In this document: piece after piece, positions 1,616-9,989 of the stretch
How the letters are laid out: the number at the start of each line of letters is the position of its first letter
Position numbering within the stretch: the stretch's first letter is position 1
Assembly (NCBI GenBank): GCA_024401855.1
Contig: JAKSKH010000017.1
Span: forward strand, 1-45,483
DNA: 45,483 nt
Source of the DNA: Bacteroidales bacterium
GTDB lineage: Bacteria; Bacteroidota; Bacteroidia; Bacteroidales; UBA932
Reading direction: 5' to 3'
The notes under the pieces: model-generated
Told to the model about the DNA's origin: nothing
What the model saw: the letters and a program-made list of their open reading frames with translations, nothing else
Database searches by the model: none
Program-made: the position numbers and the translations under genes

Positions 1616-2203
1616 CTAAAGTTCAGGCTCTTCGTGCGACATCCTGATGACCTTTGAAGACAAATGAAACTGCTCCTGCAGCTCTCTCTCGACCTCTTCT
1701 CGAATCCGCCTCTTCCGTCTGGCTTCAGCTCTGGCAAATTCGCGGTCGGATTTCCTCTTTGCCTGATATGCCTCCCATTTCTCCTTGTTGGAAGCAAGTT
1801 CAGCCTCAACGCGAGCAACGGTATCGGCGAACGCCTTTGATTTCAGCTCGCATTCCCAGATGGTAACAACGCTCCAGGACAGTGATTCCAGCCTCTGATT
1901 GTTGACGGCATCCCGTTCCTTGTTGCGAGCCACCTTCTCAACCCAGAACTCGACGTTCGTTTCTGGGACAGTGTAATACTTGCAACCTGAATGACCGTGC
2001 CAGAAGCAGCCGTTCACGAATATTGCGGTACGATATTTCGGCAGAACGATGTCGGGCTTGCCCGGAAGAGTCTTGACATTCACGCGATACCGGAAACCCC
2101 TCTCAAACAAGGCTTTCCGCAACTTGATTTCGGGCTTCGTGTTTGCAGAATGTATTTGGGACATACACCTGCTCCTTTGCTCAGGTGAAAACTTGTCTGG
2201 CAT
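1616..2203 (-). CDS. vsr: Very short patch repair endonuclease (Vsr)
   Basis: Vsr nicks 5' of the T in T:G mismatches formed when 5-methylcytosine deaminates, so it normally accompanies a cytosine-5 methyltransferase. The 195-residue protein has FSPEQRSRCMSQI, Glu25 in NTKPEIKLR, Asp51 in PGKPDIVLP, and Trp68-His69 in NGCFWHGH; these positions match the catalytic and metal residues of E. coli Vsr (E25, D51, W68, H69). Thr63 and His64 of the E. coli enzyme are Val and Asn here. A charged C-terminal extension of about 55 residues, probably helical, follows the nuclease fold. It follows a 76-residue gene with a 3-bp gap, and two cytosine-5 methyltransferases lie 2.7 kb away on the other strand, its likely partners. 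Confidence 0.92.
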   Translation of the reverse strand: MPDKFSPEQRSRCMSQIHSANTKPEIKLRKALFERGFRYRVNVKTLPGKPDIVLPKYRTAIFVNGCFWHGHSGCKYYTVPETNVEFWVEKVARNKERDAVNNQRLESLSWSVVTIWECELKSKAFADTVARVEAELASNKEKWEAYQAKRKSDREFARAEARRKRRIREEVERELQEQFHLSSKVIRMSHEEPEL

Positions 2204-2206
2204 ACA

Positions 2207-2437
2207 TTACTGGTCTTCGTGGAGAATTGTATTGAGTTTGCCCTTTCGTACGATTACCAAATCATTCTCGAACGGGTTATCTTCGGACAGTTTCTTCGTT
2301 CTGAAAGTCTGATATGCAATGCCCAATAGATATTTTACTCTGGAATCCTCGTACATAGCCGCTACTGATCCAAAGTAAAAGTGGTCGTGAGTGTCTTTCA
2401 CCTCAACGTGAATAACTGTCCTGTCTTGTTTAAGCAT
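2207..2437 (-). CDS. Hypothetical 76-residue protein upstream of vsr
   Basis: I do not recognise this protein. I start it at the ATG at 2437 (MLKQDRTVIHVEV) because a promoter element TATATTTG at 2454-2461 lies inside the longer reading frame, so the longer form could not be made from it. The sequence has a VKDTHDHFYFGSVAAMYED stretch followed by an AYQTFRTKKLS segment and an ENDLVIVRKGKLN strand, suggesting a small mixed alpha/beta domain. It ends 3 bp before vsr and is probably co-transcribed with it, so a role with Vsr or as a small regulator is possible, but this is inference. Confidence 0.6.
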   Translation of the reverse strand: MLKQDRTVIHVEVKDTHDHFYFGSVAAMYEDSRVKYLLGIAYQTFRTKKLSEDNPFENDLVIVRKGKLNTILHEDQ

Positions 2438-2453
2438 TGCTTGTCTTGCGATG

Positions 2454-2461
2454 CAAATATA
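2454..2461 (-). promoter_or_regulatory. Bacteroidetes -7 promoter element for the 76-aa gene and vsr
   Basis: Reading the minus strand, TATATTTG matches the Bacteroidetes -7 consensus TAnnTTTG, 16 nt before the chosen ATG. No convincing -33 TTG at the usual spacing was seen. It is back to back with the plus-strand promoter at 2503-2531. Confidence 0.6.
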
Positions 2462-2502
2462 GCAAAATGACACAATTATTGAAAACTTGTTGATTATGTA
2501 TA

Positions 2503-2531
2503 TTGCATCATAAACAAATGTTGTATATTTG
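2503..2531 (+). promoter_or_regulatory. Bacteroidetes-type promoter for the 82-aa gene
   Basis: TTG at 2503-2505, an 18-nt spacer and TATATTTG at 2524-2531 form a good -33/-7 pair. It lies inside the longest reading frame of the next gene, which fixes the real start downstream (2551 or 2560). Confidence 0.65.
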
Positions 2532-2559
2532 TATCGTGAAACTTGATATTATGTGCGGT

Positions 2560-2808
2560 ATGAACATCTATGTGCTGACAGAAACTGAAAACACAGACAC
2601 CGAGTATGTCTATGTTGAAGCGTTCGAACATTTGTCAAAAGCCAAAGCGAGACTCAAAGCTCTTTACAATGAATTTGTTATTCAAGGCGACATCGATTCT
2701 ATCATCAAAGCATCACTGGACGTCAATTTTATGTTTGCCACTTATGAAAATGCCGAGGGAGTTATCGTCCACTGGGAAATAAAGGAAGCTCAATTGCACG
2801 TTGATTAG
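2560..2808 (+). CDS. Hypothetical 82-residue protein in the restriction island
   Basis: Not recognised. The ATG at 2560 (MNIYVLTETEN) is preferred, with 2551 (MCGMNIYV) as alternative; longer forms are excluded by the internal promoter at 2503-2531. The protein is short and acidic, with an N-terminal beta strand, a central amphipathic helix (EHLSKAKARLKALYNEFVIQ) and a final EGVIVHWEIKEA strand, so a small soluble alpha/beta protein. It stands alone under its own promoter, and the next gene also has its own promoter. Role in the defence cluster unknown. Confidence 0.55.
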   Translation: MNIYVLTETENTDTEYVYVEAFEHLSKAKARLKALYNEFVIQGDIDSIIKASLDVNFMFATYENAEGVIVHWEIKEAQLHVD

Positions 2809-2828
2809 GGATTATTGTGCTATTTTTG
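2801..2828 (+). promoter_or_regulatory. Bacteroidetes-type promoter for the 315-aa gene
   Basis: TTG at 2801-2803 and TATTTTTG at 2821-2828, spaced by 17 nt. The -33 part overlaps the end of the previous gene. It excludes the start at 2815 and supports the ATG at 2866. Confidence 0.6.
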
Positions 2829-2865
2829 CAGAAGATTCATAATCTTCCCGCAGACAATAGCTTTA

Positions 2866-3813
2866 ATGACGAAGGCCGATTTCATCAAGACAGTATCTGA
2901 CATTCAAAATAATTGTGATTTTGAACTGTCCTCTGCTTGTTTATTTTCACACGAGGAATTAGCTTCCATTTCTGACGAGCAAATAACTGATGCACTTGAT
3001 GAATTGTCAAATTATCTTTTCTCTTTCTATAATTCAAAGTGCAGACTGTTTGATGAAGCCGAGGAGATACGGAAGTTCGATCCCCAATATGCACTGCAAG
3101 AAATTCCTAATACTTCAATATTTCTCCTCTTTAGAGGATTTCTTGCAATACTAAAAGAGTTATCCCTTAGACACAATCCGGGTCGGTACCAGCGAATGCT
3201 TATAGAACTCTTTGGAAGATTCACTTTATTGTATGCAGGTAACAAGGAATTGTTTAATGAAAACAATTCTCTGATTTCAACTATTTTTAACGACATTGCC
3301 TTCAACACACTTGACTTGATTACCTCTTATACATGGGACTTCGATGAGGCAATTTATCTCCGGCTAACAGTTATGAATCTATTGTTTCTTCGGGGCTTAT
3401 CTTGCAAGAAGGAAATATCGAAGATTCTTGTGTTTAAGAATTTCGATATCGAAGATGTTCGCATTTACAATAAATCCATCATTTTGGAATGCTTGGATTT
3501 GTATCTTTCATTTGTGTCAGAGTCAGATGCCGCACAGCACACTGTTGCAGTTGATACATCTTGGTATTACTCTTATTTATTTAAGAAAAGATTTGGATTC
3601 ATTTATTGTCGTAAAGTTACTCCTGTCAACATTCCTCCCTATTCATACAAGGGGTTTGTAAAATCACCTTGTTTCAAGTCGCTGGTTTCATATGAGGTAG
3701 GTTTGGGAAAGAGAATACAGGCAGTCCATCTAGGTATAAACAGAAGGAGTAGCGAATATTTACCGTCAGAATCCCAATGCTTGTATAATTTTTCAACAAT
3801 GAAATACGAATAG
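2866..3813 (+). CDS. Hypothetical protein, 315 residues, in the restriction island
   Basis: I do not recognise a family. Starting at ATG 2866 (MTKADFIKTVSDIQ), the protein has no signal peptide, no convincing membrane segment and appears mostly helical. It contains leucine- and phenylalanine-rich helices such as TSIFLLFRGFLAILKELSL and LRLTVMNLLFLRGLSC, with a more basic, strand-like C-terminus around WYYSYLFKKRFGFIYCRK. A helical-repeat or scaffold-like protein is one reading. It is AT-rich like the neighbouring methyltransferases and lies between Vsr and the glycosylase/methyltransferase operon, so it belongs to the same acquired block. An accessory defence role is possible but unsupported by any motif. 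Confidence 0.6.
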   Translation: MTKADFIKTVSDIQNNCDFELSSACLFSHEELASISDEQITDALDELSNYLFSFYNSKCRLFDEAEEIRKFDPQYALQEIPNTSIFLLFRGFLAILKELSLRHNPGRYQRMLIELFGRFTLLYAGNKELFNENNSLISTIFNDIAFNTLDLITSYTWDFDEAIYLRLTVMNLLFLRGLSCKKEISKILVFKNFDIEDVRIYNKSIILECLDLYLSFVSESDAAQHTVAVDTSWYYSYLFKKRFGFIYCRKVTPVNIPPYSYKGFVKSPCFKSLVSYEVGLGKRIQAVHLGINRRSSEYLPSESQCLYNFSTMKYE

Positions 3814-3828
3814 GCATCCTAATAGAAC

Positions 3829-3859
3829 TTGTATTCATCAAAATTATGGAGTATATTTG
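3829..3859 (+). promoter_or_regulatory. Promoter of the glycosylase-methyltransferase operon
   Basis: TTG at 3829-3831, a 20-nt spacer and TATATTTG at 3852-3859 form a near-ideal Bacteroidetes promoter. It would transcribe the HhH glycosylase, the DUF6088-like gene and both methyltransferases as one unit. It excludes the upstream start at 3857. No copy of the C-box repeat seen upstream of the controller gene occurs here. Confidence 0.7.
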
Positions 3860-3889
3860 CCGCAAACATATAAATGCGGCCAACATTAC

Positions 3890-4555
3890 ATGACCTCAAT
3901 GCTAAATAATACAGATGTCAAAGAGCAACTAGACCATCTTAAAAAGTCAGACCACCGTTTATGTAAGCTTATCGACTCAATAGGTGATATAGACATTCAC
4001 TATTATTCCGACATTGACGGATACACATTTCTCGTCCGTGAGATTGTGGGGCAAATGATTTCCGCCCAAGTCAAAAAAATATTATATAACCGTTTTGTCA
4101 TTTTGTGTGATGGCGAAATCACTGCGCACAAAGTTGCAGCTTTCAACATCGAAAAATTGAGAGATGTCGGTTTGTCGACATCAAAAAGTAGATATATAAT
4201 TAATCTGTCAAAAGAGATATCTGAAGGTAGGCTCAATCTTGGAGAGCTTGACAATAAGAGTGACGAAGAGGTTTTCAAAACACTTCTCAAAATATGCGGA
4301 GTGGGGAAATGGACGGCAAAGATGTATTTACTATTCTACTTGAAAAGAAACGACATACTCCCTGTTGAAGATATGGCATTCATCCAGGCTTACAAGTGGT
4401 TATATGATACCGATGACATTAAACCGTCAAGCATAGAGAAACAATGCCAAAATTGGCATCCGTACGCATCTTTGGCATCAAGGTACATGTATAAAGCACT
4501 TGATTCAGGGCTAACAAAGATTCCAATAAACGAATTTTTATCAAAATCCCAATAA
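3890..4555 (+). CDS. AlkA-like HhH-GPD DNA glycosylase
   Basis: A 221-residue base-excision glycosylase of the HhH-GPD superfamily. The helix-hairpin-helix is LLKICGVGKWTAK (Gly137-Val138-Gly139, with Lys140) and is followed by ILPVEDMAF with the catalytic Asp161 at the expected distance. No C-terminal four-cysteine iron-sulphur motif is present, so it is closer to AlkA (3-methyladenine glycosylase II) than to EndoIII. The start at 3890 (or 3899) is set by the promoter at 3829-3859. It is the first gene of an operon: the next gene begins 2 bp after its stop, followed by two cytosine-5 methyltransferases. That context suggests repair of methyltransferase-linked damage (T:G mismatches or N3-methylcytosine) rather than general alkylation repair; this last point is inference. 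Confidence 0.8.
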   Translation: MTSMLNNTDVKEQLDHLKKSDHRLCKLIDSIGDIDIHYYSDIDGYTFLVREIVGQMISAQVKKILYNRFVILCDGEITAHKVAAFNIEKLRDVGLSTSKSRYIINLSKEISEGRLNLGELDNKSDEEVFKTLLKICGVGKWTAKMYLLFYLKRNDILPVEDMAFIQAYKWLYDTDDIKPSSIEKQCQNWHPYASLASRYMYKALDSGLTKIPINEFLSKSQ

Positions 4556-4557
4556 TT

Positions 4558-4941
4558 ATGCAATCCACGCTTAGTACACAGGAAAAAATCCGTGGTTTTC
4601 TTCAATCACATAAGGAGGGCGCAACGTTCATAAACGATGATTTCAAGCACCTTGGAGACTATAGTTGTATTCGCTCTGCGATTGTCAGACTATGCAAAAA
4701 AAATGAACTTGTCCGTGTATGCCAAGGGGTATACATGATTCCATACAAAGAACATTTGTTGCCTGACTGCCTAACAATTGCTGGCGAGATCGCTCGCAAG
4801 TCTGGTGGTATTGTCAAGTATAAGGACGACATAACAATAAATAATGTTCGCATTTACTCGGTGTATACAAATTCATCTACTCGTTCTTTATTTCTTGACA
4901 ATGGAACAATAATTAAGTTTATTCATTCAAATGACCTTTAA
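4558..4941 (+). CDS. Winged-helix protein, DUF6088 / AbiEi-N-like
   Basis: A 127-residue protein with the pattern typical of DUF6088 and the N-terminal domain of AbiEi-type antitoxins: an initial helix (STQEKIRGFLQSHKEG), a TFINDDFKHLGDYSCIRSAIVRLCKKNEL recognition part, then a wing-like LVRVCQGVYMIPY. Such proteins are DNA-binding regulators or fragments of toxin-antitoxin modules. No partner nucleotidyltransferase (AbiEii) is present. It starts 2 bp after the glycosylase and its last 11 bp overlap the first methyltransferase, so it is tightly coupled and could regulate the modification operon. Family assignment is by pattern and moderately sure. Confidence 0.6.
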   Translation: MQSTLSTQEKIRGFLQSHKEGATFINDDFKHLGDYSCIRSAIVRLCKKNELVRVCQGVYMIPYKEHLLPDCLTIAGEIARKSGGIVKYKDDITINNVRIYSVYTNSSTRSLFLDNGTIIKFIHSNDL

Positions 4942-6181
4942 TCTGATTTCTGATGATATGAATACTATAAAGAAGCTCACTGATTATCTTTTCAAAAAGA
5001 ATGCAAGTCTTCCGGAATTCGAAAACCTTTCTATTGAGGAACAGCTAGCTTTCGTCACTCATTACTTAGAAAATATGGGTAAACCAGAAGAGCCGTTCTA
5101 CAGTAAGGGCAAAATGATTTATAATACCATGCTTGGCAGGCCTGTTGATGCGGACGTTTCTGAGGAGGATCGTAAACAGTTTTATGATTCATTACTTTTT
5201 CATTTTACCCCGCAAAAGGAATCAAGATTTACGTTTATTGATTTGTTTGCTGGAATCGGAGGATTCAGATTGTCAATGCAAAAATATGGTGGGAGATGTG
5301 TTTTTTCATCAGAGTTTAATCCGTGCGCTCAAAAAACATATACTTTCAACTATGGCGAAGTGCCATTTGGAGACATAACAAAACCTGAGACAAAAGCATC
5401 AATACCAGAACAGTTTGACGTTTTGTGTGGAGGATTTCCGTGCCAGGCTTTTTCGATTGCAGGATATAGAAAGGGCTTTGAAGACACACGGGGCACATTA
5501 TTCTTCGACATTGCTGAAATCATCAAGAAACATCAGCCCAAGGTGGCATATTTAGAAAACGTGAAGAATCTTGAAAGTCATGATGGGGGAAAAACATTTA
5601 AGGTAATATGCGCAACTCTCGAAGAACTTGGATACGCAGTATACCATAAAGTTCTCAAAGCAAGCGAATACGGGAATATTCCTCAGTGTCGAGAAAGGAT
5701 TTTGATTGTAGCATTCAATAAATCCAAGATTAAAAATCACGATACATTTAAATTCCCAGGCCAAATTCCTCTGACCAAGACAATACATGACTGTATTGAA
5801 TCGGGCAAAATGGAAGAAAAATATTATTATCGAGATGGTCAGATATACTATCCGAAGCTAGTTGAAGGAATGACCTCATCTGATTCAATCTATCAATGGC
5901 GTCGAATTTATGTCCGAGAAAACAAGACGCATTTGTGCCCGACACTGACAGCAAATATGGGTGGCGGGGGCCACAATGTCCCTCTAATTAAGACATCGGA
6001 AGGAATAAGGAAACTCACACCAAAGGAATGTTTAAATTTTATGGGTTACCCTGAAGCATTCGCTTTTCCAAATTCCATTTCTGAGAGTGCAAAATATATG
6101 CAGGCTGGCAATTCTGTAGTTGTACCGATGATGACGCGAGTTGCTGAACAGATTGTTGAAGTTTTATCTTCTCAGAAATAA
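4931..6181 (+). CDS. DNA (cytosine-5) methyltransferase 1
   Basis: A 416-residue cytosine-5 DNA methyltransferase. The catalytic domain follows an extra N-terminal region of about 100 residues that is acidic and helical. Visible motifs: I, DLFAGIGGF (104-112); IV, GGFPCQAFS with nucleophile Cys171; VI, ENV (199-201); VIII, QCRER (242-246); X, QAGNSVVVP near 391. The target-recognition region contains YYYRDG, YQWRRIYVRENK and CPTLTANMGGGGHNVP. It overlaps the upstream gene by 11 bp; an alternative start at 4958 would remove the overlap. The second methyltransferase follows after 31 bp and has a closely related recognition region. The Bsp6I-like nuclease opposite suggests the target GCNGC, but I could not verify this. 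Confidence 0.93.
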   Translation: MTFNLISDDMNTIKKLTDYLFKKNASLPEFENLSIEEQLAFVTHYLENMGKPEEPFYSKGKMIYNTMLGRPVDADVSEEDRKQFYDSLLFHFTPQKESRFTFIDLFAGIGGFRLSMQKYGGRCVFSSEFNPCAQKTYTFNYGEVPFGDITKPETKASIPEQFDVLCGGFPCQAFSIAGYRKGFEDTRGTLFFDIAEIIKKHQPKVAYLENVKNLESHDGGKTFKVICATLEELGYAVYHKVLKASEYGNIPQCRERILIVAFNKSKIKNHDTFKFPGQIPLTKTIHDCIESGKMEEKYYYRDGQIYYPKLVEGMTSSDSIYQWRRIYVRENKTHLCPTLTANMGGGGHNVPLIKTSEGIRKLTPKECLNFMGYPEAFAFPNSISESAKYMQAGNSVVVPMMTRVAEQIVEVLSSQK

Positions 6182-6212
6182 CCATTAATTTCAGCCGAAA
6201 GACATTACGAAT

Positions 6213-7202
6213 ATGGATTACCGAGTTGGCAGTTTATACGCCGGTGTTGGAGGTATTTGTCTCGGCTTCCAGCAAGCCGGATTCACACTCGAATGGGCGA
6301 ACGAGTATGACAAATATGCCTGCATAACATATCGAACTAATTTTAAACACAAATTGATAGAAGGAGATGTTCTCAATCTGAACATTTCAGAATTAAGGGC
6401 TGTTGATGTCCTTTGTGCCGGATTTCCGTGTCAGCCGTTCTCTGTCGCCGGATATAGAAAAGGTTTTAATGATCATCGAGGCAATCATTTCTTCAAGGTC
6501 ATGGATTTTGTTGACACAATGAGGCCTAAAGTCATATTTCTTGAGAATGTCAAGAATCTGGTTGGCCATGATGGCGGTAAAACATTTCGAATTATCCGCG
6601 AATCAATTGAGGATAGAGGATATTCGTTTTCATACAAGGTTCTAAACACTAAAGATTATGGAAACATACCTCATAACAGAGAAAGAATCTTCATCGTTGC
6701 TTTTGACAAAGAATCAACGGGCGATGCTTGGCGATTATTTGACTTCCCTGAAAAGAAACCGCTGATCACCAGAATCAAAGACATAATTTCAAATGAGCAG
6801 GTCGATGAATCATATTATTACCGGGAAGATAAATGGTTTCACGAAGAATTTAAAAAATTAATTAACGACCCCAATACAGTTTATCAGTGGAGAAGAAAAT
6901 ATGTTCGTGAGAATAAGAATGAATGCTGTCCGACACTAACGGCCAACATGGGAACCGGAGGAAACAATGTCCCAATAATAACTACGCAATATGGTTTCAG
7001 GAAACTGACTCCAGATGAGTGTTTTGCATTCCAGGGTTTTCCGGTAAAGACTGGTGAATATAAACTACCAGACATTGCTAATAGTCACCTCTATAAACAA
7101 GCAGGAAACTCCGTAAGCGTTCCAGTGATTTATGCCATTGCTGACAATATCATGAAGGCGCTAAACGGAGTTCAAGTCTGCCAAGAGATGCTACTATTTT
7201 AA
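6213..7202 (+). CDS. DNA (cytosine-5) methyltransferase 2
   Basis: A 329-residue cytosine-5 methyltransferase of normal length. Motifs: I, SLYAGVGGICLGF (near the N-terminus); IV, AGFPCQPFS with nucleophile Cys73; VI, ENV (121-123); VIII, HNRER (164-168); X, QAGNSVSVP (296-304). Its recognition region (YYYRED, YQWRRKYVRENK, CPTLTANMGTGGNNVP) is strikingly like that of methyltransferase 1, while the rest has diverged. The pair may therefore share or overlap in target, or each may serve one strand or one of the two nucleases. It lacks the N-terminal extension of its neighbour. Its last 9 bp overlap tail to tail with the convergent second nuclease gene. Confidence 0.93.
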   Translation: MDYRVGSLYAGVGGICLGFQQAGFTLEWANEYDKYACITYRTNFKHKLIEGDVLNLNISELRAVDVLCAGFPCQPFSVAGYRKGFNDHRGNHFFKVMDFVDTMRPKVIFLENVKNLVGHDGGKTFRIIRESIEDRGYSFSYKVLNTKDYGNIPHNRERIFIVAFDKESTGDAWRLFDFPEKKPLITRIKDIISNEQVDESYYYREDKWFHEEFKKLINDPNTVYQWRRKYVRENKNECCPTLTANMGTGGNNVPIITTQYGFRKLTPDECFAFQGFPVKTGEYKLPDIANSHLYKQAGNSVSVPVIYAIADNIMKALNGVQVCQEMLLF

Positions 7203-7940
7203 CCGCGTAATAAGTTCTCTAGCGTTATGCATATCTCCCGATTGGATGTAAAAATTCTCGGCATCTATCGGGATTTTTCCATTGAGAAGAGCCCTTTGCG
7301 GAATAATCTGCCTCTGCCTAATAACTGAAACAAATTCCTCCTTCGTAACCCAACCGGCAATGTCGAACGACCACGTTTCTGAGGTTATGATGCGGTCAAT
7401 TGTCGATTTATCGATGTTATCTGAATACATCAACCTATTCTGTCTAAACAGGGACTTAATATCAGGTTTAATCCTTACCAGAATGTAATAATCATAGGAT
7501 GCTGTAGCTCCAATCGCAAGGTTAGGCAGATAGTTACCATCCATATCATAATCTTGACTTTCAAGAAGAAGTAGATTTGAAAAGAAGGCGGCGGATTTAA
7601 CGCTTAAAGTCTTTCCATTTACAACAAGATCGGTGTCATCCCAGACTCCAACACCATAAACATCAAAGTCAGGCTCACCACAAGCAATACCGTTATCTAA
7701 TAAAACTTGTCTAAGGCAGACTTCAGCAAGCTTTCCCTGAAATGTATTGCAGAATTTTTCTCCGGCACGTCTGTGCGTTTGACCACCTGTTCGGTGGTTA
7801 CGATGATGTCCTTCTCCAAAACACATTTCGTAAGCGAAATTTTTCACCTTCTCGAGCTGATTGCTAGGTATTGTATTTCCTACGAACGAACGTCTAGATG
7901 TATTCATGTAGACGTTGCCATTCTGCTGCATCTTACTCAT
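7194..7940 (-). CDS. Putative type II restriction endonuclease, PD-(D/E)XK-like
   Basis: A 248-residue protein I cannot assign to a named enzyme. It has the layout of a PD-(D/E)XK nuclease: Glu73 in FQGKLAEVCLRQ, then PDFDVY (90-95), Asp104 in DDTDLVV, and SVK (113-115), where the lysine would complete a D...(S)xK site. A later IAGWVTKEEF stretch is typical of the C-terminal part of several restriction enzymes. It begins 2 bp after the Bsp6I-like gene (alternative start at 7907), in one operon with the controller gene, and its end overlaps methyltransferase 2. Two nucleases and two methyltransferases in one locus suggest either two specificities or a two-subunit enzyme. Confidence 0.6.
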   Translation of the reverse strand: MSKMQQNGNVYMNTSRRSFVGNTIPSNQLEKVKNFAYEMCFGEGHHRNHRTGGQTHRRAGEKFCNTFQGKLAEVCLRQVLLDNGIACGEPDFDVYGVGVWDDTDLVVNGKTLSVKSAAFFSNLLLLESQDYDMDGNYLPNLAIGATASYDYYILVRIKPDIKSLFRQNRLMYSDNIDKSTIDRIITSETWSFDIAGWVTKEEFVSVIRQRQIIPQRALLNGKIPIDAENFYIQSGDMHNARELITRLK

Positions 7941-7942
7941 TG

Positions 7943-8527
7943 CTAGTATTTTGTTATCTTACCAGTTTCGATGTTACATGTACAATATGGCTTTATACCT
8001 TTCTTTGCGATTATATCTTTTTTGATAGAAAAACGAGGCCTGCGACCTTCAGCTTGCTGATCTTTGAAAGTCTGAGTGCCATTTACCTTCATGTTATAGA
8101 TATCATCATTTGGAATCTCGTATACATCAAAAGTATAGTCCCAATTTCCATCTTTGTAAAAATCAACAAAGTACAATACGTCCCATACTGAATTAGGACC
8201 AAATGATGTAAGATCTTGTTCTACACTTCCACCTTTAATTTGTATTCTTGCATGTGTTTTGGGGTCGTAAGCATCAAAGGATGAATGCTCCGCTCCTGGA
8301 ACTCCGTCATTGGTTCTCCAACAGTCAAAGAAATAGCAGAAACCACATTCGGATAGGCCATCAGGTAGGTTTACCTTGCGTGCTTTCAATGCGGTAAGTT
8401 GGTTACAAAGAATCCTCCAGCTAGAATATATTTGCTTGAGTGCTTCTCTGTCTTTTGGATCATAAATGTCTACATTTGCGGCGAAATCACCTTCTGGTAG
8501 GTGTAGAATTTTAAGTTCTGTTTTCAT
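7943..8527 (-). CDS. Bsp6I-like type II restriction endonuclease
   Basis: A 194-residue protein that resembles, from memory, the Bsp6I restriction enzyme family (GC^NGC). Recognisable stretches are IYSSWRILCNQLTALKARK, LPDGLSE, LTSFGPNSVWDVLYFVDF and NGTQTFKDQQAEGRRPRFSI. A plausible PD-(D/E)XK-type site is Glu60, SFDAYD (Asp85/Asp88) and QIK (96-98), with Gln in place of the usual acidic residue. It starts 15 bp after the controller gene and ends 2 bp before the second nuclease, so C, R1 and R2 form one operon, convergent with the methyltransferases. If the family match holds, at least one methyltransferase should protect GCNGC. Confidence 0.7.
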   Translation of the reverse strand: MKTELKILHLPEGDFAANVDIYDPKDREALKQIYSSWRILCNQLTALKARKVNLPDGLSECGFCYFFDCWRTNDGVPGAEHSSFDAYDPKTHARIQIKGGSVEQDLTSFGPNSVWDVLYFVDFYKDGNWDYTFDVYEIPNDDIYNMKVNGTQTFKDQQAEGRRPRFSIKKDIIAKKGIKPYCTCNIETGKITKY

Positions 8528-8542
8528 GATATTATGATACTT

Positions 8543-8758
8543 TTAGATTCCTTCTACAAGCTCTGATATCGAAACTTTCAATGCTTTAGCGATTTTTTCA
8601 ATATTCACCAATGTGATATTTTTTTCCGCTCTTTCTATCATTCCTATATATGTTCGATGTACGCCAGCCGACTCCGCCAGTTGTTCTTGAGAAAGATTTA
8701 GCGCCTTGCGCCTGCTCTGTACAGCAACACCAAATCTGAGTAAAATAGATTCTTTCAT
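8543..8758 (-). CDS. XRE-family controller (C) protein of the restriction-modification system
   Basis: A 71-residue protein consisting only of a helix-turn-helix of the XRE/Cro type: RRKALNLSQEQLAESAGVHR then TYIGMIERAEKN and NIEKIAKALKVSISELVE. Size and sequence fit C proteins, which first activate and then repress the nuclease operon so that methylation is completed before cleavage starts. The ATG at 8758 is chosen because the promoter (8792-8822) lies inside the longer frame that begins at 8866. It is the first gene of the C-R1-R2 operon. Two direct repeats in its promoter are likely its own binding sites. Confidence 0.85.
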   Translation of the reverse strand: MKESILLRFGVAVQSRRKALNLSQEQLAESAGVHRTYIGMIERAEKNITLVNIEKIAKALKVSISELVEGI

Positions 8759-8791
8759 AAAGAAAAAAATATGATTTATGCCTGTTTTTGC

Positions 8792-8822
8792 AAATTTATA
8801 GATGCCTACTAAAGTTATCAAC
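8792..8822 (-). promoter_or_regulatory. Promoter of the C-nuclease operon
   Basis: On the minus strand, TTG (8820-8822), a 20-nt spacer and TAAATTTG (8792-8799) form a good Bacteroidetes promoter 33 nt before the C start codon. One candidate operator repeat lies in the spacer and the other just upstream of the -33 box. Confidence 0.75.
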
Positions 8823-8835
8823 ATACTATAGTTAG
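8806..8835 (-). promoter_or_regulatory. Candidate C-box operators, two direct repeats
   Basis: On the minus strand TAACTATAGTATG (8835-8823) and TAACTTTAGTAGG (8818-8806) form a direct repeat with 17-bp period. Each copy holds ACTwTAGT, the same ACT..AGT dyad core as known C-boxes. The distal copy sits upstream of the -33 TTG and the proximal copy inside the -33/-7 spacer. This is the layout by which C proteins activate from the distal site and repress from the proximal one. Confidence 0.65.
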
Positions 8836-8890
8836 CATCAATATTGTATACGTGTCCACTACGCACAAAAGAATTCGTCCATTTAACAAA

Positions 8891-8945: not shown

Positions 8946-9989
8946 TTATTTTGATTTCTTGCGGTATCTTCCGTGCTCAACCTTCTCCAGCGGACCGGAG
9001 TCTGAACAGAGGAAGCGCACCCACTTTTCCGCCGTACTTGGAGACGTTCCCGTCTGCTTGGCCACCTCGATGTAGTCCTGACGGTCAAACTCTGCGGGCA
9101 GCGCCTCAAGAAACTTCTGACGCTTGATGCCTTTGGAGAACACATCGGCTTTCTCGACATCGGTCTGGGACATCTCGCCGAATATCCTTGCAGTATGAAC
9201 GGACAGGACATCGATAATTGTCAGCGCCACGTCGAAATCTTCGTCAGTGTAGTAGAATGTCTGGCTCAAATCCCCGGTCTCCTTTATCCTCAACGCTGAT
9301 ATGATCATTGCGATACGGAAGCAGATGAGGCCAAGCCTGCGCACTGATGCCAGAATATCATCCTTGAAAACTGCGTACATCCGCTGCTGCATCTGTTCGA
9401 AATGGGCATTGAAACGCTTTGACTGCTCTGCGCTGAGGCGGAAACGCATCGAATTCTCTTTTAATAGACAATCGTAGAAGTCCATATATTCTCGTCCCCA
9501 TTGAGTGAATTGTTCATCCAATAGCATTCCGTCCTGAGCCGCAAAAACGTCTTTCCAGGCGAGTCTTGATTCCAGACGGTAGAACATAAAACGGGAAAAC
9601 AGTCCGTTCTCAGCATCCTTGATAAGTGCTATGACTTGACGCGGAGTACCTGTAAGAACCGTGGAGAGCCGTGGGCAATCAATATTCACGTCTTCGTCAT
9701 TCGTCCTTCTGTGATAAGTGATAGGCTCGTGATGAAAAGCCTTGCGGAATCCGTCACTGAAGTTTCCGAAATCGGTCTCAAAGGTGTTGGCAAGGGTGTC
9801 GCCCTCGGTCTCAAAGATGAGTCCCTTTTCATCGTTCTCCTTGAGGAGTTGATAAACGGCGGTTGCACTGGTGTTGGCTGGGATGATGAGCATTGACTGT
9901 GCCGGCTTCTTGGGTTTCGTGCCTCGCGTTTTTCTGTCCGCTCCTTCCCATTGCGCCACCTGCTCTTCGTAGAGTTTTTTGAACCTTCA
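8946..9989 (-). pseudogene. 3' fragment of a DUF3987 (primase/helicase-associated) gene
   Basis: About 340 residues of a DUF3987 protein, the C-terminal part of the VirE/primase-type proteins carried by Bacteroidales mobile elements; it contains PANTSATAVYQLL, ETEGDTLANTF, DCPRLSTVLTGTP and GLFSRFMFYRL. Reading can begin at a GTG at 9959, but family-like sequence (RFKKLYEEQ) continues upstream of it and then meets an in-frame TGA at 9987-9989. The N-terminal half, including the Walker A region of full-length relatives, is absent. I therefore call it a truncated remnant. Base composition is richer in GC than the adjoining restriction genes. It marks the edge of an old integrated element. Confidence 0.7.

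Follow-up and report, generated by a model that had tools for sequence, protein, structure and literature searches.

The window analysed here is a 45,483-nucleotide stretch of contig JAKSKH010000017.1 from a Bacteroidales bacterium assembly (GCA_024401855.1; 85% complete, 2.03 Mb, 67 contigs), and positions 1616 to 8835 contain a restriction-modification (R-M) island. The island is probably a composite type II R-M locus in which a single class of methyl mark, 5-methylcytosine (5mC) at GCNGC-type sites, guards two unrelated endonucleases: a Bsp6I-family enzyme and a protein designated R248. Most likely, it joins two GCNGC-guarded systems, one of the Bsp6I type and one of the R248 type. The evidence consists of the gene content of the island, the model fold of R248 and its conserved putative catalytic residues, a recognition block common to both methyltransferases (M1 and M2), the co-occurrence of R248 with a methyltransferase of this class and the mixed lineage of M1 and M2. 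A reading made earlier from the sequence only had described an R-M island in which two candidate nucleases lie with two C5 methyltransferases and a C protein as controller, and this description is supported by family searches and by the fold model of R248.

R248 and its association with the methyl mark

R248 has no match at E <= 0.1 in Pfam, NCBIfam, PADLOC (2.0.0) or PHROGs, and nothing better than E 0.25 was found among PDB sequences. Its predicted structure is confident, the nearest chains are PD-(D/E)XK nucleases and the fold of the predicted model is consistent with that superfamily. Among R248 relatives, the putative catalytic residues E73, D/E104, K115 and D/E127 are kept, whereas position 113 is not acidic, in departure from the canonical D ... 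(D/E)xK arrangement. No R248-like enzyme was found described in the literature; R248 carries no published name, and REBASE, which lay outside the search, may hold an entry. The best explanation is that R248 is the first member of a type II endonuclease family absent from the libraries searched, a family whose site and guard can be tested. Most likely, R248 needs no partner subunit and is a type II endonuclease against which GCNGC-class methylation protects; it is predicted both to cleave DNA and to be blocked by the mark. Membership in the BisI family, whose enzymes are 5mC-dependent and act at GCNGC, is possible, although the co-occurrence of R248 with a methyltransferase argues against it; BisI structures do not appear among the 50 entries listed of the 177 chains compared with the R248 model, an absence that excludes nothing.

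The first 18 relatives traced comprise one viral contig, one plasmid and 16 genome contigs, and a sample of the order was added to them. The genome contigs come from one scan that requires short exact peptide matches, and more distant relatives will therefore have been missed. In the order sample, R248 occurs in 5 of 393 genomes, two of which hold close copies (the window's own genome and G409, with locus L025). Scans of viral contigs returned one contig (L002/L065), phage records gave no match, and a plasmid search with the distant R248 clade returned the same Priestia record alone.

All 19 close relatives, including two broken copies (L018 and L019), are accompanied by a GCNGC-class methyltransferase in the same record or genome. 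The methyltransferase lies in the same stretch for 15 of the 19 and elsewhere in the genome for four (L004, L005, L018 and L025). The recognition-block pattern was matched in 15 of the 18 loci, the exceptions being L004, L005 and L018; the methyltransferases found elsewhere in the genomes of the four unlinked cases carry the block, three of them with one mismatch. In L004, an HpaII R-M system adjoins R248, but this neighbourhood is treated as coincidence because the HpaII-linked methyltransferase lacks the block. Methyltransferases of this class are found in 7 of 295 genomes of the order, and removal of the window's own genome and G409, both among the seven, leaves a background of 5/293. As L005 and L018 have a common chromosomal setting, they are counted as one event, and three independent unlinked cases correspond to (5/293)^3 = 5e-6. 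In the genus g10, R248 is present in 9 of 169 genomes and the methyltransferase in 21, and all nine fall within the 21 (hypergeometric 1.2e-9, a statistic that ignores relatedness; some g10 genomes also appear to repeat loci already counted, as with genome G868 and locus L017). The methyltransferase occurs without R248 in 12 of these 21 genomes, and the reverse is never seen in g10; an endonuclease that relies on a protecting enzyme would be expected to show such one-way dependence. In the cases seen, unlinked R248 persists only where the mark is present.

When linked, the two genes show a recurrent layout: in 12 of the 18 relatives (L002, L006-L013, L015-L017), R248 and an M2-type methyltransferase are encoded convergently, with stops ranging from 42 bp apart to a 29-bp overlap. 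In the island, M2 and R248 share 9 bp at their stop ends.

The separation of R248 from its methyltransferase in L004, L005, L018 (a broken copy) and L025 resembles the separated R-M systems and solitary endonucleases surveyed by Ershova et al. (2012). In that survey, type II candidates are sequence predictions whose proof is pending (PMC3488263). The present set differs in that linked and unlinked forms of one family of predicted endonucleases stand side by side. Tentatively, R248 might be a mobile 'shared-password' endonuclease that spreads without a methyltransferase of its own, settles only in GCNGC-marked cells and doubles with a resident endonuclease, although we would not give this idea even odds. 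If it were true, one epigenetic mark would license several unrelated nucleases, with the window as a stacked form (two nucleases, two methyltransferases). The main prediction of R248 as a guarded endonuclease, if right, would itself mean that restriction enzymes and methyltransferases are modules which can be separated and combined under one shared methyl mark. Nature would then offer candidates for type II systems that function while unlinked, a kind that the 2012 survey considered unproven (PMC3488263).

A more distant clade of R248, 28% identical, is found in L026-L028 (genomes G486, G671 and G586), where its neighbours are a DUF3226-type protein and an ATPase of the AAA_15/AAA_21 (OLD/AbiEii-like) kind; the Pfam scan of this pair was made for L026. 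No GCNGC-class methyltransferase was found in these three genomes, and the clade is possibly a separate defence module.

Methyltransferases, partner nucleases and competing explanations

M1 and M2 fit the block pattern of Bsp6I-linked methyltransferases with zero mismatches, and the block is common to M1, M2, three methyltransferases from Firmicutes Bsp6I plasmids and the R248-linked enzymes. From this block, GCNGC is the predicted target of the island. The site of Bsp6I, an enzyme filed in the AlwI family, is 5'-GCNGC-3' (PMC9799307), and GCNGC is also assigned to the Bsp6IM-type enzyme of Mycoplasma agalactiae, a methyltransferase whose modification appears as m5C in one table but as m4C in a second (PMC9465063). 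Depletion of GCNGC was sought in the window and none was found, which speaks neither for nor against an acquired island being active. A tree of 25 methyltransferases places M2 among flavobacterial enzymes linked to R248 (100/99), whereas M1 falls with M1-type enzymes (100/100); because both are long branches, their exact placement inside these groups is unsure. As M1 and M2 derive from two lineages, the window combines three elements: an R248-M2 unit, an M1-type methyltransferase and a C-Bsp6I unit, C being the controller.

The Bsp6I R-M system (PF09504 plus a C5 methyltransferase, GCNGC) has the same endonuclease family and the same methyltransferase block as the island. The Bsp6I-type enzyme was matched on nine Firmicutes plasmid records, eight of them annotated as Bsp6I family, and none of the nine is among the R248 records. 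Three of these loci were opened, and each has one R gene and one methyltransferase, whereas the island also contains R248, Vsr, C and one more methyltransferase. Within the phylum, PF09504 occurs in 1 of 395 genomes, the window's own, and gene order around it cannot therefore be compared there; viral scans with this enzyme gave no match.

Other neighbours of R248 vary. In six of the 18 loci (L010, L011, L012, L015, L016 and L017), no other nuclease was recognised by eye near R248 and M2, and a Pfam scan of 20 neighbouring proteins at these loci found no nuclease family among them (0/20, with 6/20 lacking any match). At L010, a protein of 426 aa that Pfam does not match (3737-5017) lies approx. 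3 kb from R248; its start appears nuclease-like by eye, and a second nuclease is possible there. In six other loci (L002, L006-L009 and L013), a PDDEXK_5-like protein of approx. 305 aa, forming one aligned family, is encoded directly upstream of R248. Two of these proteins were scanned against PF11645 and scored 3.4e-5 and 5.6e-5, both under the curated cut-off; a search of plasmids for this protein found none. An NgoFVII-type enzyme accompanies R248 in L003, L014 and, as seen by blastp, L139-L142. It also lies beside a methyltransferase unlinked from R248 in L100 (by similarity to the L003/L014 proteins) and L101 (by eye), and it is matched in seven of nine R248-less genomes with an M1-type methyltransferase, one match (G565) being partial and on another contig and three of the nine genomes being less than 75% complete. 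The Bsp6I-, NgoFVII- and PDDEXK_5-like families show no significant similarity among themselves or to R248.

The site of NgoFVII itself is GCSGC. In relatives, an NgoFVII-type enzyme is accompanied by an M1- or M2-type methyltransferase, Vsr and R248, but no such enzyme was recognised in the island of the window, where the Bsp6I-type enzyme stands in its place. In L003 (Priestia plasmid NZ_CP065336.1), a DACNH/DAC (diadenylate cyclase-like) protein is encoded between the methyltransferase and R248 (6177-7691) and is possibly a signalling defence gene of the same island.

One GCNGC-class methyltransferase was found beside two nuclease genes in L002, L003, L006-L009, L013, L014 and L139-L142. 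In particular, the genomes of L006 and L014, each with R248 and another nuclease, have a single C5 methyltransferase match genome-wide, so that one methyltransferase must guard against both nucleases if both are active. L139-L142 represent one chromosomal site of g10, where four genomes have M2, the NgoFVII-type enzyme, Vsr and R248. Seven further genomes at this site (L145-L151, with at least one flank in common) have M2 and Vsr, and neither nuclease was recognised in them by blastp; this looks like a loss of both nucleases with the mark kept, or a later gain.

Three other explanations of the locus have been weighed. R248 and the Bsp6I-like protein might be two subunits of one hetero-oligomeric endonuclease served by strand-specific M1 and M2, as in LlaJI, Bpu10I and BbvCI, which we consider unlikely. 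The R proteins of LlaJI belong to families other than those of the island's nucleases. The type IIT systems Bpu10I and BbvCI have two methyltransferases each and, like the island, two nuclease genes in one system. Their subunits form heterodimers on an asymmetric site (PMC4081073), whereas R248 and the Bsp6I-like protein have no significant similarity and separate distributions. Closer in layout is LlaJI of Lactococcus, in which two 5mC methyltransferases and two R genes occur together and restriction at an asymmetric site rests on two subunits (PMC1459862). The 2-bp gap between the R248 and Bsp6I-type genes, beside two C5 methyltransferases, recalls this system as well as a four-gene locus of C. 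cellulovorans (PMC11779793), and the overlapping start and stop codons of the PDDEXK_5-like and R248 genes in L002 and L006 also favour a heteromer. In contrast to the LlaJI subunits, each nuclease type of the island occurs without the other: R248 has no recognised second nuclease in the six loci named above, and the Bsp6I-type plasmids lack R248 and, where opened, have one methyltransferase. Moreover, the neighbour nucleases of R248 belong to three dissimilar families, and M1 and M2 share their block while having separate relatives. The heteromeric reading, which the layout had suggested at first, is thus weakened by the distributions, as in an obligate two-R system neither R would occur without the other.

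It also seems improbable that two R-M systems with different sub-sites (e.g., GCSGC and GCWGC), one enzyme pair each, came together by chance under one controller. The different lineages of M1 and M2 would agree with this, and sub-specificities are known: M.BatI has the narrower target GCDGC (PMC8936443), and in BbvI the endonuclease recognises GCAGC and the methyltransferase GCWGC (PMC4081073). Nevertheless, the loci with one methyltransferase and two nuclease genes speak against it, and the sole C5 match in the L006 and L014 genomes makes a common protected site more economical, at least there. A role of R248 as an Hjc-like repair or recombination nuclease at methylated or hemimethylated sites, or as a helper in VSP repair, is very doubtful. 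Holliday junction resolvases are among the best structural neighbours of the model, the distant clade adjoins an ATPase gene and lacks such a methyltransferase, and at the seven g10 loci that keep M2 and Vsr, neither R248 nor the NgoFVII-type gene was recognised. The last observation cuts both ways: Vsr and M2 persist there without R248, which is thus not needed with them. In addition, M2 often has no recognised nuclease next to it other than R248, and the two genes converge as in classical R-M pairs.

Two independent endonucleases with one mark and one controller remain the most economical reading, and the separate distributions of the nucleases argue against obligate heteromers. According to this reading, M1 and M2 would methylate GCNGC-type sites, and the Bsp6I-family enzyme and R248 would each cut unmethylated sites independently. 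R248 could work alone with an M2-type methyltransferase or join Bsp6I-, NgoFVII- or PDDEXK_5-type enzymes. Two nucleases under one mark may also provide simple resistance to phage anti-restriction aimed at one enzyme.

Predicted control of expression and the candidate repair genes

The C protein most likely starts at the ATG at 8758 (71 aa) and not at 8866. Its nearest PDB chains are C.BclI (1.3e-12) and C.AhdI (2.3e-11), and it is 59% identical over 68 residues to the C protein of L006, one of two R248 loci with a C-protein match (the other is L111). A similar block to the operator of the island lies upstream of C in L006; the operator was judged by eye against the C-box consensus and this one homologous locus. 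C is upstream of and co-oriented with R and is preceded by this putative tandem operator, which is the layout of C-protein-controlled R-M systems. By binding the operator, C would at first hold back and later drive expression of the operon C > Bsp6I > R248, giving methylation a head start.

Vsr aligns to E. coli Vsr (1cw0) at 4e-29. The earlier reading had noted that Vsr accompanies some type II systems, and in agreement with this, Vsr recurs beside GCNGC-class methyltransferases, e.g., in L003, L006, L014, L019, L099-L101, L139-L142 and L145-L151; L130, the short match locus of G222, also has Vsr. At the site of the island, Vsr may repair T:G mismatches arising from deaminated 5mC.

The AlkA-type glycosylase with an HhH-GPD domain (HhH) aligns to 2h56 across the GxGxWTA motif and the following Asp. 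Its relatives occur in 84 of the 296 phylum genomes sampled, own included (E <= 1e-10), with a best identity of 35% outside the own genome. No M1/M2-like methyltransferase was found near any of 35 relatives (29 genome loci, up to approx. 1.5 kb on each side, and six plasmid loci, up to approx. 5-6 kb); a more distant linkage is possible, as most flanks extend only approx. 1.5 kb. A tblastn search with HhH (E <= 1e-4) over 159 loci, the window's own six excluded, matched only the 35 loci fetched for HhH, and viral scans with this protein gave no match. On the 0/35 count, HhH was rejected as a conserved repair partner of the methyltransferases. In one of the six plasmid relatives (L029, NZ_AP024943.1), an AlkA-type glycosylase is encoded directly downstream of a SacI-family endonuclease and methyltransferase; glycosylases thus sometimes join R-M operons.

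The sequence-only reading had proposed that the locus combines cleavage, timing and two lines of repair for methylation damage. Cleavage and timing are retained as the best reading of the sequence, whereas a second repair line finds no support, HhH having no tblastn match in the related R-M loci compared. The expectation that homologous loci keep the genes together holds in part: R248 and the methyltransferase stay together, joined by Vsr in some loci and by C in L006 and L111, while HhH was not found with them. Likewise, the winged-helix protein, orf88, orf101 and orf332 gave no tblastn match under the same threshold and exclusion in the 159 loci.

Layout of the island and accessory genes

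Every gene named in the earlier reading is present as an open frame near the positions given there, and the family names (Vsr, HhH-GPD, winged helix, two C5 methyltransferases, nuclease and C protein) are upheld by Pfam, NCBIfam and PADLOC searches (Table 1).

Table 1. Features of the island, with window positions
Feature	Position	Strand	Basis or remark
Vsr-type T:G mismatch nickase, 195 aa, C-terminal extension	1616..2203	-	PF03852 4.5e-34; TIGR00632 3.7e-43, 146.6 bits vs cut-off 97.85
orf88, small protein	2207..2473	-	sole match PHROG 10608 (function unknown) 5.5e-9; no Pfam match
orf101, first gene of + strand cluster	2503..2808	+	open frame, ATG start at ~2560; weak matches only
orf332	2866..3813 from ATG (315 aa); 332 aa from TTG at 2815	+	weak matches only
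AlkA-type HhH-GPD DNA glycosylase	3857..4555	+	PF00730 1.3e-12; PDB 2h56 2.2e-22
Winged-helix protein (wH), DUF6088 / AbiEi-like	4558..4941	+	PF19570 1.7e-9; PADLOC AbiEi 1.3e-15; end overlaps M1 start
M1, C5 methyltransferase, ~95-aa N-terminal extension	4931..6181	+	PF00145 1.7e-90; GCNGC-class recognition block
M2, C5 methyltransferase	6213..7202	+	PF00145 1.5e-84; GCNGC-class recognition block
R248, predicted PD-(D/E)XK restriction endonuclease, 248 aa	7194..7940	-	family without library model
Bsp6I-family type II restriction endonuclease	7943..8527	-	PF09504 1.1e-19, 71.2 bits vs cut-off 25; PADLOC REase_II 2.2e-37
C protein (controller), 71 aa	8543..8758	-	PADLOC Control_protein 8.2e-22 (longer frame 8543-8866)
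C-box-like operator	8808..8832	-	ACTATAGT and ACTTTAGT flanking GTTG with a spacing of 9 bases; upstream of C

The AT-rich composition noted earlier is also borne out: G+C is 36-41% in windows spanning approx. 2.0-9.0 kb and approx. 50% outside, with an intermediate value at the Vsr end (0.47 in 1501-2500). The - strand cluster C > Bsp6I > R248 is convergent with the + strand cluster orf101 > orf332 > HhH > wH > M1 > M2. A TAnnTTTG-like box, a candidate promoter motif of the Bacteroidota type, lies close to the start of orf101. We regard the glycosylase, the winged-helix protein, orf88, orf101 and orf332 as passenger or accessory genes. In particular, orf332 has no Pfam or plasmid match, weak matches only in the order sample (5 genomes out of 246, its own not counted) and a similarity to PHROG 31889 (function unknown) at 3.6e-4; its single-sequence model is unusable (pLDDT 40.6). 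The right border of the island is formed by an adjoining DUF3987 gene (8946-9959), which covers only positions 115-363 of the 364 in the family profile and lacks the N-terminal part. To judge from this coverage, the gene is probably truncated, and it is possibly a mobile-element remnant.

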